From Pseudomonas monteilii (GTDB lineage: Bacteria > Pseudomonadota > Gammaproteobacteria > Pseudomonadales > Pseudomonadaceae): DNA of 64,000 bases. Each line of letters starts with the position of its first letter. Position 1 is the first letter of the stretch. A program made the translations under genes and the position numbers. The stretch is taken from NCBI GenBank assembly GCA_001534745.1, contig CP013997.1, positions 2,170,001-2,234,000 of the forward strand. The letters run 5' to 3'. The notes under the pieces were generated by a model that made no database searches, had not been told where the DNA came from, and worked only from the letters and a program-made list of their open reading frames with translations. Of this stretch, positions 2,201-46,821 are shown one piece after another.

Positions 2201-2504
2201 GCCGGAGACGTTCGAGGGCCTGCGCGCTGCTGGCGTGCTGGCCGATGCGCGCACCTTGCGCGGTACCGGGCATCGGCAGCTGGTCACGTTGCTGGGGCAG
2301 GGCGGGTATGCCCGTTACGACGAATCCACGGCCCGGCGCCTGCATGCGCTTGCCCTGCGACTCGAGCAGGCGCACGCGGGCGAGGTCGATCGGTTGCTCC
2401 ACGACCCGGCACCGCTGATGCCCAAGCTGCTGGCCTTCGAAGGCATAGGCCCCAAGACGGCAGCCATCTTCATCGAAGGGCTGGGCTTGAACGACAGGCC
2501 ATAG
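2181..2504 (+). CDS. Helix-hairpin-helix (endonuclease III-like) protein, probably N-terminally truncated
   Basis: From GTG at 2181 the frame gives 107 residues with LRGTGHRQLVTLLGQGGY, ARYDESTARRLHALA and, near the C-terminus, LLAFEGIGPKTAAIFIEGL, a helix-hairpin-helix motif typical of the HhH-GPD DNA glycosylase/endonuclease III fold. Full-length relatives carry roughly 70 further N-terminal residues (the LLVLAMLLSARIS region), which I do not find upstream in any frame. The gene overlaps the previous one. It may be a decayed remnant rather than an active enzyme. Confidence 0.55.
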   Translation: MNWAGSEPETFEGLRAAGVLADARTLRGTGHRQLVTLLGQGGYARYDESTARRLHALALRLEQAHAGEVDRLLHDPAPLMPKLLAFEGIGPKTAAIFIEGLGLNDRP

Positions 2505-2598
2505 CGGTACTGACTGCACGATCAACCCTCGTTGACGAGCCAGCGCCCACACAGACCTCTGCAGACCGTCGGTGTAGGCAGGGCTGCGCAAGCAGGTT

Positions 2599-2670
2599 GT
2601 GGGAGCGGGCTTGCCCGCGATGCAGGCGGCGACGGCCCGGACGCTATCGCGGGCAAGCCCGCTCCCACAG
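2599..2670. repeat. Paired REP sequences (BIME-like hairpin)
   Basis: GTGGGAGCGGGCTTGCCCGC is followed after about 30 bp by its inverse, GCGGGCAAGCCCGCTCCCAC. This is the standard P. putida-type REP pair. The rest of 2505-2769 is AT-rich spacer plus a second REP type (GGGCCCTGCGGGCC) that forms the IS110 target. Confidence 0.85.
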
Positions 2671-2784
2671 AAAATAAATATCCTATTGATTTTAAAGGGA
2701 ATAATTTCAGAATTTTGTGGGCCCTGCGGGCCTAATTGCGGCCGGTCCGGCGCCCCGGCAGGGGCCGCTTGTATGGTAGGACTT

Positions 2785-2931
2785 GAAGGGAGGAGGAGGG
2801 ACTAGATCCGCTTCTGACTGTTCGCGCAGTACAGACCGTGGGAGATTTCGCCCCTCCTCCCTTCACCCAAGCGCCGATAAGGAATGCTTCCGGTTTTGAC
2901 CGACGAAAGTACAAGCCTGCGCCTCTGGGTG
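2785..2931 (+). ncRNA. Candidate bridge RNA of IS110 copy 1
   Basis: Two consecutive stem-loops lie in the 5' leader. Stem 1 pairs 2785-2796 (GAAGGGAGGAGG) with 2853-2864, 12 bp perfect. Its internal loop holds CCGCT (2808-2812), identical to the left target side, and GTGGGAG (2838-2844), complementary to the right target side CTCCCAC; these flank a small hairpin (CTGACTG/CAGTACAG). Stem 2 pairs CACCCA (2864-2869) with TGGGTG (2926-2931), extended by GCGC/GCGC. Its loop holds GGAATGCT (like the right IS end GAATCT) and TACAAG (2910-2915), the complement of the left end CTTGTA. This is the target-loop/donor-loop layout of IS621-type bridge RNAs. Pairing was done by eye. Confidence 0.7.
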
Positions 2932-2971
2932 GCCCTTCAAGCCCTTAGACCTTACCTGCGGAGACGCGCTC

Positions 2972-3919
2972 ATGGCAATGCCATCATCCGAACACAGCAC
3001 GATCATAGGCGTCGACGTTGCTAAGGCTGAGCTCGTCATTTACGAAGACAGCTCCGGACAGTTGAGCACTATTGCCAACAACAAGACGGCTATTAAACAA
3101 TGGATCAAGGCATTGCACGGCAAGGTCTCGATTGCAATCGAGGCCACCAATGTCTATCACCTGCTGTTTACCGATATGGTCCATGAAGCAGGACATACCC
3201 TTTACTTGATGGATGGTTATGCCCTGAGTCACTACCGAAAAGGTATTGGCTCACGCGCCAAGACCGACCCGATCGATGCAAGGGTACTGGCCCGGTACCT
3301 CAAGAACGAAGGCGCTAATCTTACCCCCTGGATCCCCCCTTCGACACTCTATCGCGACCTTGTCAGCCTGTTTCGCAGGCGCGCGATGCTCGTCCAGACG
3401 CGTACAGCGCTGAGACTGAGCTGGGAGGGTGAGCCGCTGCTCAAGAACCTTTTGAAGTCCCAGCTCACCTCGATGAAGCGCCTTGAAGACCTCATTGAAA
3501 ACATGATCAAGAAGCTGCTCGACCAGGCAGGACTGATGCCGTTAGTAAAGCAGTGTATGAAAGTTGAAGGTATTGGTTTTCTTACCGCTGCGCGTTTGGT
3601 CGCCACCTACCAGCGAGGCGAGTTCAAGAGTGCCGATGCCTTCATCGCCTTTTTAGGAATGGACCTGCGAGTGGCTCAGTCGGGCAAGAAAAAAGAACGC
3701 TCGACGTTGACCAAACGAGGCGATCCAGAGGTCCGTCGTTTGCTGCACAACGCGGCGATGTCAGCAGGCAGGACAGCTGCTTGGAAAACGTTTTACGAAG
3801 ACAAGCAGAGCCGCGGTTTTAAAAAGACTCAAGTCCTGGTCATGCTGGCCCGCAAGCTGGCTCGAGTGGTCTTTGCCCTGATCAGAAGCGGAGAGGAATA
3901 TCGCCCCAAAGCCGCTTAA
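2972..3919 (+). CDS. IS110-family transposase (RuvC-like DEDD recombinase), copy 1
   Basis: 315 residues. The N-terminal RuvC-like domain carries the acidic tetrad D15 (IGVDVAKAE), E57 (IAIEATN) and D99/D102 (KTDPIDARVLARY). The C-terminal Tnp domain has an HhH-like KVEGIGFLTAARLVA and the block FLGMDLRVAQSGKKKERST, where S237 is the candidate nucleophilic serine. These enzymes recombine element ends and target guided by the element-encoded RNA. All signature residues are present, so the copy looks functional. It differs from copy 2 at only two residues (I121/V and N159/S). Confidence 0.95.
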   Translation: MAMPSSEHSTIIGVDVAKAELVIYEDSSGQLSTIANNKTAIKQWIKALHGKVSIAIEATNVYHLLFTDMVHEAGHTLYLMDGYALSHYRKGIGSRAKTDPIDARVLARYLKNEGANLTPWIPPSTLYRDLVSLFRRRAMLVQTRTALRLSWEGEPLLKNLLKSQLTSMKRLEDLIENMIKKLLDQAGLMPLVKQCMKVEGIGFLTAARLVATYQRGEFKSADAFIAFLGMDLRVAQSGKKKERSTLTKRGDPEVRRLLHNAAMSAGRTAAWKTFYEDKQSRGFKKTQVLVMLARKLARVVFALIRSGEEYRPKAA

Positions 3920-3944
3920 GCGCTTGGCAATTACCATAGAATCT

Positions 3945-4307
3945 CCCACAGGTGACCGCGATAGCCTGCAACACCGCGGTGGGGCTACGGGTGTAGGAGC
4001 GGCCCCTGTGCCGCGATGGGCCGCAAAGCGGCCCCAGAAACCGATCAGAAATAAAGCCTCTGCACCAGGGAAGCTATCGCCATGTTCTCTGCGCGACAGC
4101 GCGGCGCCAAGGCGGCGGGCGGACTCCCACAGGTGACCGCGATAGCCTGCAACGCTGCGGTGGGGCTACGGGTGTAGGAGCGGCCCCTGTGCCGCGATGG
4201 GCCGCAAAGCGGCCCTAAATCGATCAGCAATAAAGCCCGGATCCTGCTAGCCACCGTCATGTTCTCTGCGCGACATCGCGACGCCAAGGCGGCGGGCTGA
4301 ACTCCCA
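3945..4307. repeat. Two tandem ~182-bp REP-containing units
   Basis: Each unit begins CCCACAGGTGACCGCGATAG, continues with a GGGGCTACGGGTGTAGGAGC segment and CCGCAAAGCGGCC, and ends with an ATGTTCTCTGCGCGACA block. The first unit directly abuts the IS110 right end. No gene is seen between 3945 and 4464. Confidence 0.8.
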
Positions 4308-4464
4308 CAGGATCCCGCGACAGCCTGCCACGCCACGGTGCGGCCACGTATGTGAGGCCCCCCGCCAGGGCCCACAGAACAGCAACAGCATCGTCTCGAA
4401 AAAGCGAAGGCCTAGCGCCCGGCTAATCGCACCAGCCCCCGCTCAACCGCCCCGGCATCTCGCC

Positions 4465-32963: not shown

Positions 32964-33039
32964 GAACGATCGTGTCGACGGTTTTTGTGGCCCCTGCGGG
33001 CCCAATCGCGGCACAGGGGCCGCTTGTATGGTAGGACTT

Positions 33040-33186
33040 GAAGGGAGGAGGAGGGACTAGATCCGCTTCTGACTGTTCGCGCAGTACAGACCGTGGGAGA
33101 TTTCGCCCCTCCTCCCTTCACCCAAGCGCCGATAAGGAATGCTTCCGGTTTTGACCGACGAAAGTACAAGCCTGCGCCTCTGGGTG
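33040..33186 (+). ncRNA. Candidate bridge RNA of IS110 copy 2
   Basis: Identical in sequence to the leader RNA of copy 1, including the 12-bp first stem, the CCGCT and GTGGGAG target-matching segments and the TACAAG donor-matching segment. Preservation alongside a drifting transposase gene is consistent with functional constraint or with recent gene conversion. Confidence 0.68.
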
Positions 33187-33226
33187 GCCCTTCAAGCCCT
33201 TAGACCTTACCTGCGGAGACGCGCTC

Positions 33227-34174
33227 ATGGCAATGCCATCATCCGAACACAGCACGATCATAGGCGTCGACGTTGCTAAGGCTGAGCTCGTCATTTACGA
33301 AGACAGCTCCGGACAGTTGAGCACTATTGCCAACAACAAGACGGCCATCAAGCAATGGATCAAGGCATTGCACGGCAAGGTCTCGATTGCAATCGAGGCC
33401 ACCAATGTCTATCACCTGCTGTTTACCGATATGGTCCATGAAGCAGGACATACCCTTTACTTGATGGATGGTTATGCCCTGAGTCACTACCGAAAAGGTA
33501 TTGGTTCACGCGCCAAGACTGACCCGATCGATGCAAGGGTACTGGCCCGGTACCTCAAGAACGAAGGCGCTAATCTTACCCCCTGGGTCCCACCTTCGAC
33601 GCTCTATCGCGACCTTGTCAGCCTGTTTCGCAGGCGCGCGATGCTCGTCCAGACGCGTACAGCGCTGAGACTGAGCTGGGAGGGTGAGCCGCTGCTCAAG
33701 AGCCTTTTGAAGTCCCAGCTCACCTCGATGAAGCGCCTTGAAGACCTCATTGAAAACATGATCAAGAAGCTGCTCGACCAGGCAGGACTGATGCCGTTAG
33801 TAAAGCAGTGTATGAAAGTTGAAGGTATTGGTTTTCTTACCGCTGCGCGTTTGGTCGCCACCTACCAGCGAGGCGAGTTCAAGAGTGCCGATGCCTTTAT
33901 CGCCTTTCTAGGAATGGACCTGCGAGTGGCTCAGTCGGGCAAGAAAAAAGAACGCTCGACGTTGACCAAACGAGGCGATCCAGAGGTCCGTCGTTTGCTG
34001 CACAACGCGGCGATGTCAGCAGGTAGGACAGCTGCTTGGAAAACGTTTTACGAAGACAAGCAGAGCCGCGGTTTTAAAAAGACTCAAGTCCTGGTCATGC
34101 TGGCCCGCAAGCTGGCTCGAGTGGTCTTTGCCCTGATCAGAAGCGGAGAGGAATATCGTCCCAAAGCCGCTTAA
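33227..34174 (+). CDS. IS110-family transposase, copy 2
   Basis: 315 residues, two differences from copy 1 (V121 and S159). D15, E57, D99, D102 and S237 are all retained, so it appears intact. Its stop lies 25 bp from the right end of the element. Confidence 0.95.
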   Translation: MAMPSSEHSTIIGVDVAKAELVIYEDSSGQLSTIANNKTAIKQWIKALHGKVSIAIEATNVYHLLFTDMVHEAGHTLYLMDGYALSHYRKGIGSRAKTDPIDARVLARYLKNEGANLTPWVPPSTLYRDLVSLFRRRAMLVQTRTALRLSWEGEPLLKSLLKSQLTSMKRLEDLIENMIKKLLDQAGLMPLVKQCMKVEGIGFLTAARLVATYQRGEFKSADAFIAFLGMDLRVAQSGKKKERSTLTKRGDPEVRRLLHNAAMSAGRTAAWKTFYEDKQSRGFKKTQVLVMLARKLARVVFALIRSGEEYRPKAA

Positions 34175-34199
34175 GCGCTTGGCAATTACCATAGAATCT

Positions 34200-46029: not shown

Positions 46030-46077
46030 TCAGTAGGGGTAGTTTCACCTATTGAGGTGTCCGGGGCCATTAGACCA

Positions 46078-46821
46078 GCTCAGAGCGGACGCTATCGCGG
46101 GCAAGCCCGCTCCCACAAGCTGCTTGCGCAGCCATGCCGACACTGAGCTGACAGGCTGCAGCGATCTGGGTGGGTGGGCTTGCCAGCGATAGGGCCTTGT
46201 CAGGCGCCGCCTGCATCGCGGGCAAGCCCGCTCCCACAAACTGCTTGCGCAGCCATGCCGACACTGAGCTGACAGGCTGCAGCGATCTGGGTGGGAGCTG
46301 GCTTGCCAGCGATAGGGCCTTGTCAGGCGCCGCCTGCATCGCGGGCAAGCCCGCTCCCACAAGCTGCTTGCGCAGCCATGCCGACACTGAGCTGACAGGC
46401 TGCAGCGATCTGGGTGGGAGCTGGCTTGCCGGCGATAGGGCTCTGTCAGGCGCCGTCTGCATCGCGGGCAAGCCCACAAGCTGCTTGCGCAGCCATGCCG
46501 ACACTGAGCTGACAGGCTGCAGCGATCTGGGTGGGAGCTGGCTTGCCGGCGATAGGGCTCTGTCAGGCGCCGTCTGCATCGCGGGCAAGCCCACAAGCTG
46601 CTTGCGCAGCCATGCCGAGACTGAGCTGACAGGCTGCCGAGATCTGGGTAGGAGCTGGCTTGCCGGCGATAGGGCTCTGTCAGGCGCCGTCTGCATCGCG
46701 GGCAAGCTCCACAGATCCGTAATGATCGGTCTCTGCTGCCGTATCGGCTGATCGGCGCAAGGCACATTCACCGCACGCTTCCCTAGCCCCCTGTCCATAG
46801 CGCTGTTGCGCAATAGAAGGA
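46078..46821. repeat. Array of five 117-122-bp tandem repeats with embedded REP sequences
   Basis: A lone REP (46085-46117) is followed by units starting at 46118, 46240, 46362, 46479 and 46596. Each unit contains CTGCTTGCGCAGCCATGCCG, ACTGAGCTGACAGGCTGCAG, a GGCTTGCCRGCGATAGGGC half and a REP half CATCGCGGGCAAGCCC. Units 1-2 carry GCTCCCACA in full; the REP halves ending units 3 and 4 lost GCTC and are 5 bp shorter. The open frames here are by-products of the repeat. About 100 bp before the chemoreceptor stop hold nothing recognisable. Confidence 0.9.

Follow-up and report, generated by a model that had tools for sequence, protein, structure and literature searches.

The IS110-group insertion sequence that is present twice in the window, a stretch of 64,000 nucleotides from Pseudomonas monteilii, is very probably a REP-targeting recombinase element with a bridge RNA encoded in its leader. 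A sequence-only reading had proposed a naturally REP-programmed bridge-RNA recombinase, and this proposal is supported by the recombinase profiles, the geometry of the two RNA loops and the covariation of guide and target among relatives. The features of the element and their coordinates are listed in Table 1.

Table 1. Features of the IS110-group element in the window, numbered from the first nucleotide of the window
Feature	Position	Strand	Remark
IS110-group insertion sequence, copy 1	2770..3944	+	1175 bp including the right core CT (3943-3944)
Copy 2 of the same element	33025..34199	+	Identical leader, same REP class
IS110 recombinase gene	2972..3919	+	315 aa
Left target half of REP, GGGGCCGCT	2761..2769	+	Ends in CT core 2768-2769
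Right core CT and right target half CTCCCAC	3943..3949	+	
Second candidate target sequence, AAGCCCGCTCCCAC			Named beside GGGGCCGCTCCCAC
Circle-promoter -35, TTGGCA	3924..3929	+	17 bp to TATGGT across the joined ends
Circle-promoter -10, TATGGT	2772..2777	+	Putative activity
Predicted bridge RNA	2784..2941	+	Start predicted from the circle promoter, end from P1
Outer helix P1, 5' arm	2782..2790	+	Pairs with 2933-2941
Target-loop stem P2, 5' arm	2792..2802	+	Pairs with 2850-2860
Left target guide, AGATCCGCT	2804..2812	+	CCGCT (2808-2812) matches the target
Inner hairpin within the target loop	2813-2820/2827-2835		
Right target guide, GTGGGAG	2838..2844	+	Reverse complement of CTCCCAC
Donor-loop stems P3 (2864-2869) and P4 (2871-2874), 5' arms	2864..2874	+	Partners 2926-2931 and 2919-2922
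Left donor guide, GGAATGCT	2881..2888	+	Resembles right end GAAT-CT; match only
Hairpin within the donor loop	2891-2894/2899-2902		
Right donor guide, TACAAG	2910..2915	+	Reverse complement of CTTGTA (core and left end); match only
Antisense -10-like TAAGGT	2949..2954	-	Putative function; predicted RNA start near 2942
Antisense -35-like TTGCCA	2973..2978	-	On recombinase codons 1-3; putative function

Nine copies of the element with 97-100% identity over the query including flanks were found in the genome (4.71 Mb, one contig). The left end preceding the ATG comprises 202 bp versus 23 bp from the stop codon to the right core, which is the long-left and short-right layout of the IS110 group, opposite of IS1111, and the short subterminal repeat of the group is present as ATA (3936-3938) and TAT (2772-2774). 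The recombinase scored 77.6 bits with PF01548 (cut-off 29), 71.9 bits with PF02371 (cut-off 21.3) and 187.4 bits with NF033542, named 'IS110 family RNA-guided transposase' (cut-off 140), and by these three profiles, all above cut-off, the protein is an IS110 recombinase. Its residues 10-310 are homologous to IS621 and ISCro4. The best match among solved structures was the ISCro4 transposase (9t56; E 8e-22), compared at the protein level only, and D15, E57, D99, D102, and S237 of the recombinase align with identical ISCro4 residues; we take these five to be the catalytic residues. The DEDD RuvC-like domain and the C-terminal domain with a conserved serine, by which the IS110 group is recognized, are both present. 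A catalytic role of such D/E/D/D and S residues is also given in the description in PMC11208160.

Gene fragments in Pseudomonas entomophila 6C6 (identities of 97 and 94%) and 4A7 (96-98%) are the closest named relatives, another protein with 95% identity came from a short contig, and the remaining relatives share about 37-70% identity. The search of plasmid DNA with the element gave no match, and all 3404 records obtained by tblastn against plasmids were below 60% identity. Two other features of the window were recorded. The region separating the IS copies (5536-31000) holds very long genes in which segments are repeated at intervals of about 3.2 kb and which, by their motifs, resemble non-ribosomal peptide synthetase modules, and at positions 46056-46656 there are five direct repeats of about 123 bp with a spacing of 117-123 bp.

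The insertion junctions are uniform. All nine own copies have CT at both ends and CTCCCAC to the right, and their flanks, ...CCGCT and CTCCCAC..., constitute the head of a REP. The full target is GGGGCCGCT and CTCCCAC fused at the CT core, and the genome contains 74 sites with the resulting 14-mer GGGGCCGCTCCCAC. Classified by left target, seven copies lie in GGGGCCGCT and two in AAGCCCGCT. In paralogous repeats without an insertion (e.g., G000:C1:3221127-3221252), the sequences flanking the element on either side adjoin with an overlap of exactly 2 bp in the four flank pairs inspected by eye, and the empty site is thus represented in these repeats; the matches listed for copy 1 included no orthologous empty site.

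The leader is predicted to form two stem-loops, as the sequence-only reading had claimed, the first closed by P2 with 10 of 11 standard pairs and the second by P3 and P4 with 6 and 4 bp, and the fold beats all of 200 shuffles (z -3.4). When the leader of the window and those of 23 relatives were folded singly, P2 and P3 formed in 24/24, and P1, the complete P4, and the inner hairpin each in 23/24. The sixth pair of P2 from the loop is A-U in 14 leaders, U-A in 3, C-G in 3 and non-standard in 4, and P3 is CACCC/GGGUG in some leaders and CUACC/GGUAG in others; by these counts, the pairing of P2 and P3 is kept through base changes among the 24 leaders. The RNA alignment (A2) consisted of the same 24 leaders, the one from the window included, with L179, L190, and L191 excluded. 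RNAalifold lost the long P2 stem in this alignment because the arms shift between subgroups, and pairs were therefore counted from anchors, with L047 mis-anchored (GAC inside the guide) and L049 containing one extra base. The Rfam scan of positions 2400-4400 gave seven weak matches, none of them close to its gathering score.

The extent of the RNA and the state of its guides differ in part from what had been read from the sequence. The bridge RNA was originally placed at 2785..2931 and all guides do lie within this interval, but the outer helix P1, absent from the earlier reading, makes an RNA of approximately 2784-2941 more likely. With regard to internal pairing of the matching segments, the stems P2 and P3 stand in every leader, but in the minimum-energy fold the left and right target guides of the window are paired together (8 pairs, 8.5 kcal/mol to open), and some left-right pairing of the target guides is predicted for the free RNA in 22/24 leaders. 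This pairing, which the recombinase would have to open, is unlikely to be the selected feature, given a variable left guide and a nearly constant right guide. The leaders of the two window copies are indeed identical over 202 bp; given the 13 differences found in the remaining 973 bp, zero differences in the leader would arise by chance with a probability of about 0.09, so this identity says little.

All four guide segments, CCGCT, GTGGGAG, GGAATGCT, and TACAAG, were located where they had been claimed. Among 20,000 dinucleotide-shuffled leaders, the target guides in order were present in 24, the donor guides in 6, and both in none, the patterns for this comparison having been picked after the leader had been seen. 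The loop geometry of the window leader agrees with the published layout of IS110 bridge RNAs, in which the 5' side of the target loop carries the left target in sense, the 3' side carries the reverse complement of the right target, and the core is contained in both (description in PMC11208160). The second loop is predicted to be the donor loop for the joined ends of the element (GAAT-CT and CTTGTA); the donor ends are almost invariant across the set, in part since they were used to find the loci, and this assignment therefore comes from the sequence matches.

Covariation of guide and target was analyzed in elements delimited by CTTGTAT and ATAGAATCT, with 166 loci representing 132 distinct insertions, own copies included. 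The 21 distinct left-guide strings, corresponding to 19 distinct seven-base guides, match the commonest left target in 121 of 147 positions when the seven non-core positions are compared. Permutation of the targets gave a mean of 89.6 (sd 4.3) and none of 100,000 permutations reached 121, and the excess is confined to one diagonal. The same direction was observed in the recombinase tree, which was built from 76 rows by a quick method and had long branches flagged. At target position -8, six independent pairs changed the same way 5.0 times on average and the opposite way 0.0 times, and at position -5 the values for seven pairs were 5.6 and 0.6. The other positions gave 1.4 and 0.0 (-7, three pairs), 2.0 and 0.0 (-6, four pairs), 1.0 and 0.1 (-4, two pairs), and 1.0 and 0.0 (-3, one pair); no position was below 0.05 in the median, and the positions partly change jointly. 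Judged by both comparisons, the left guide and the left target change together across relatives, and loop-target covariation among homologs, a check proposed with the sequence-only reading, was thereby found.

At the level of individual guides, AAGCCGG, AAGCCAG, AGGCTCG, and AGCCGCC have the identical seven letters as their commonest target, and guide TAGTTCG pairs off with target AAGTTCG. Counter-examples in the fixed register are the guide of the window element (4/7) and the guides of genomes G128 and G005 (2/7, shifted by one base). Many relatives show AT or CA in the left guide opposite the core CT. The right guide GTGGGAG accompanies CTCCCAC in 114 of 115 rows with the right end read, and GTAGGAG accompanies CTCCTAC in 7/7 cases from two lineages, six G094 copies and the Nevskiaceae element L178. 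In the six copies of G080, the right guide GTGAGAG is one base off the target CTCCCAC in all.

Several loci of this set have structures of their own. The fragmentary copy from P. entomophila 6C6 (L118) has a non-REP left junction ending in ACTACGACT, and its right flank is lost at the contig end. The same letters, CCCACATTTGGTAGCT, stand on both sides of the elements L034 and L155, as if the flank had been duplicated, the right copy being of full length in L034 and represented by the first 10 bases in L155. A relic in P. mandelii (L151) without left end and right end is surrounded by the same REP-bearing repeat on either side, and the G080 copies (L050 and L102-L106) have a long right end holding a REP-like sequence of its own. 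Outside Pseudomonas, the Methyloversatilis relatives (L179, L181, L183, L184, and L189-L191) are at CTCCCAC heads in 7/7 cases with their own left guides, and the Nevskiaceae relative is inserted at a CTCCTAC head, also with its own left guide.

Choice of insertion site was compared with REP abundance by counting five REP classes in 20 genomes, 13 of which were used for the guided-choice count. The guide equals one class in 12 of them and is one base off in G094 (TAGTTCG, AAGTTCG); omitted were the own genome, the guide of which spells no class, and G011, G066, G018, G091, G080, and G128. Insertions with an identical left junction were merged before counting (e.g., one of three in G160). In the 13 genomes, 36 of 41 insertions were in the REP class of the guide versus 24.5 expected from abundance, with P 4e-7 on the presumption of independent insertions and of these five classes only. 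The 12 exact-guide genomes gave 30/35 versus 20.9 expected (P 6e-6), and with G011 added, the guide of which is one base off, the count was 40/45 (P 3e-7). Much of the signal comes from genome G125 alone, where five of six insertions are in the class of its guide AAGCTCG, which has 106 of the 1074 sites; the copies in G125 are partly broken, several with stops or cut. After removal of G125 the count was 31/35 versus 23.9 (P 0.0009), and after removal of both G125 and G094 it was 25/29 versus 20.3 (P 0.01). Guided choice is contradicted by G139 (0/1, with three more insertions in an uncounted class) and G100 (1/3). Both misses in G100 are C for T, and the guide U could wobble with G. Four insertions fell outside all five REP classes. 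The counts are evidence that the guide, beyond mere abundance, decides the insertion site. A separate rule, according to which the guide equals the commonest REP class, was broken by G039, G100, and G125.

Alternatively, the recombinase protein itself might read the REP, the loop matches being by-products. The almost constant right half CTCCCAC makes protein reading of that half possible, and the own left guide of the window element is imperfect. The guide AGATCCGCT matches GGGGCCGCT and AAGCCCGCT alike in 6/9 positions, and pairing as drawn therefore predicts no class preference. Of the nine own copies, seven are in the rarer class (74 sites) and two in the class with 251 sites (P 0.0007, tested post hoc; 0.001 with occupied sites added), and this 7-to-2 preference is left unexplained by the pairing as drawn. 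Among 194 genomes, six, the own one included, had matches at E 1e-120 or better, all already known, and none of them provided a closer relative to account for the mismatches of the left guide. Protein reading is nevertheless given very little probability, since the left guide and the left target covary and insertions follow the REP class of the guide beyond its abundance, and guidance by the leader RNA is preferred.

A promoter-like sequence, TTGGCA-17 bp-TATGGT, with 9/12 matches (-35 alone 5/6) is predicted to form across the joined ends of the excised circle, and its position points to a start of the bridge RNA near 2784. The best -35 in three own integrated copies has 1-2 of 6 matches. In a set of 139 loci that includes own copies and repeats, the average for the best -35 was 3.5/6 matches in the circle versus 1.8 integrated, and the circle -35 had 3/6 or fewer in 87 of the 139. 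Excision would thus join the ends and create the promoter, from which the bridge RNA and then the recombinase mRNA would be transcribed. The recombinase would recognize the two halves of the REP head (CCG/CT/CCCAC) through pairing with the first loop and the joined element ends through pairing with the second loop, and strand exchange would take place at CT. The right guide would stay near-fixed on the constant REP head GTGGGAG, and the left guide would shift with the REP stem of the host.

On the opposite strand, 51 of 53 distinct start regions carry a promoter-like motif, TTG[CT]CA-17/18-TANNNT, over the ribosome-binding site (RBS) and the first three recombinase codons, the two misses being L188 (partial gene, start extrapolated) and L189 (37% relative, longer spacing). 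The motif is present in all 29 chosen and aligned lineages, in which the start codon, ATG in 26 and GTG in L035, L179, and L190, begins one base ahead of it. The letters of the motif restrict codon 2 to GCA or ACA and require codon 3 to begin with A. Codon 2 is GCA in 38 and ACA in 13 start regions, and codon 3 is ATG, ATC, AGT, AAC, ACT, or ATA; within the same genes, GCA accounts for 262 of 1930 alanine codons and ACA for 93 of 737 threonine codons, and the motif has no occurrence elsewhere in those genes (47,851 bp). A-rich codons are favored just after the start codon, and such codons together with fixed RBS spacing could be a partial explanation of the conservation. Individual matches are weak, with 8 or 9 of 12 positions where the motif scores best, and the standard promoter scan with a threshold of 9/12 did not list the motif. 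An antisense RNA is predicted by this motif from about 2942 leftwards, i.e., from the end of P1 across the entire bridge RNA.

It is a tentative suggestion, rather less probable than its opposite, that the bridge RNA is faced by a conserved antisense RNA from integrated copies and that the circle alone makes the bridge RNA. Integrated copies, which are without the circle promoter, would transcribe the antisense RNA by means of a promoter embedded in the first recombinase codons. This RNA would begin at the end of the bridge RNA and span all of it, including the guides, and the guide and anti-guide RNAs would set when, and from which copies, the recombinase becomes armed.

A comparable arrangement is described for ISPpu9 of Pseudomonas putida KT2440, an IS110 element likewise located in REPs with a long structured 5'-UTR (PMC8450116), which was compared by description; its 5'-UTR has 244 nt versus the 202-bp left end here. 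According to the same description, the antisense RNA Asr9 of ISPpu9 is about 180 nt long and very stable, and its promoter overlaps the RBS and early codons, like the motif found here. The -35 of Asr9 was absent from a two-codon fusion and present in one with eight codons (PMC8450116) and is thus past codon 2, so the layout is similar to that of the motif here on codons 1-3, not identical. The downstream RNA Ssr9 and A/B boxes are also described for ISPpu9 (PMC8450116).

The ISPpu9 data on the 5'-UTR and Asr9 (PMC8450116) and the conserved antisense promoter-like motif in this clade would equally suit a leader that acts as a structured 5'-UTR controlling recombinase translation, with an antisense RNA as in ISPpu9 and with no guiding. 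Covariation with the target is not predicted by a UTR role, and a leader without any guiding is very unlikely; because UTR and guide roles are compatible, translational control is more an addition to the bridge RNA than a rival of it. Another arrangement would derive the guide RNA from the opposite strand, by the antisense promoter over the start codon, with the sense leader not loaded. The frequency of the motif and its predicted start at the end of P1 would fit such an arrangement, and the antisense fold is lower in energy in 46 of 52 leaders, with z lower in 17 of 24. Moreover, an additional supply of Asr9 is described to have increased the transposition of ISPpu9 two- to fourfold, the twofold increase being non-significant (PMC8450116). 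The energy difference is, however, mostly base composition (mean z of the difference -0.69), the helix counts of G-U versus A-C (35 versus 24) do not favor the antisense strand, and the sense strand alone agrees with the published IS110 geometry, in which the left-target sense is on the 5' side of the loop. Guiding by the opposite strand is accordingly regarded as highly improbable, and the sense leader is retained as the putative bridge RNA.

The recombinase of IS621 from Escherichia coli (IS110 group; structures 8wt6 and others) is homologous, only distantly (E 2e-21). In the description in PMC11208160, IS621 has in common with the element a left-end bridge RNA with target and donor loops, the CT core, a REP target, short ATA/TAT subterminal repeats, and a promoter formed in the circle. 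The REP family and the guides are different, and the right target guide has 7 nt including the core in the window element versus four in IS621. ISPpu10 of P. putida KT2440, also of the IS110 family, has 7/7 copies in REPs with a 2-bp direct repeat (as described in PMC1525189) and is one of six elements for which the Extended Data Fig. 10 legend names a predicted bridge RNA (PMC11208160). IS110 bridge RNAs, the REP targeting of IS621, and the predicted bridge RNA of ISPpu10 are in print (PMC11208160, PMC11208158, PMC11187229, PMC1525189), and since IS621 and ISPpu10 are already REP-targeting and linked to bridge RNAs (PMC11208160), the term 'naturally REP-programmed' is right, not new. In titles and abstract starts of the open-licence PMC literature, no report of guides tracking REP classes was found, nor any link between Asr9 and a bridge RNA beyond the citation of ISPpu9 RNAs in PMC11208160. 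The tracking of host REP classes by the guide across Pseudomonas and the conserved antisense motif may thus be new.

Bridge-RNA recombinases attract interest as tools for programmable recombination, and this clade would represent a natural reprogramming experiment, in which a near-fixed right guide is combined with 21 left-guide strings following the repeat stem of the host. Many ready guide-target pairs, tolerated mismatches too, would be available from it for specificity rules. If the antisense reading were true, Asr9 of ISPpu9 would already represent a known example of an RNA that is antisense to a bridge RNA. A real antisense partner would add an extra layer of control to these elements, and the existing ISPpu9 experiments would be reinterpreted.
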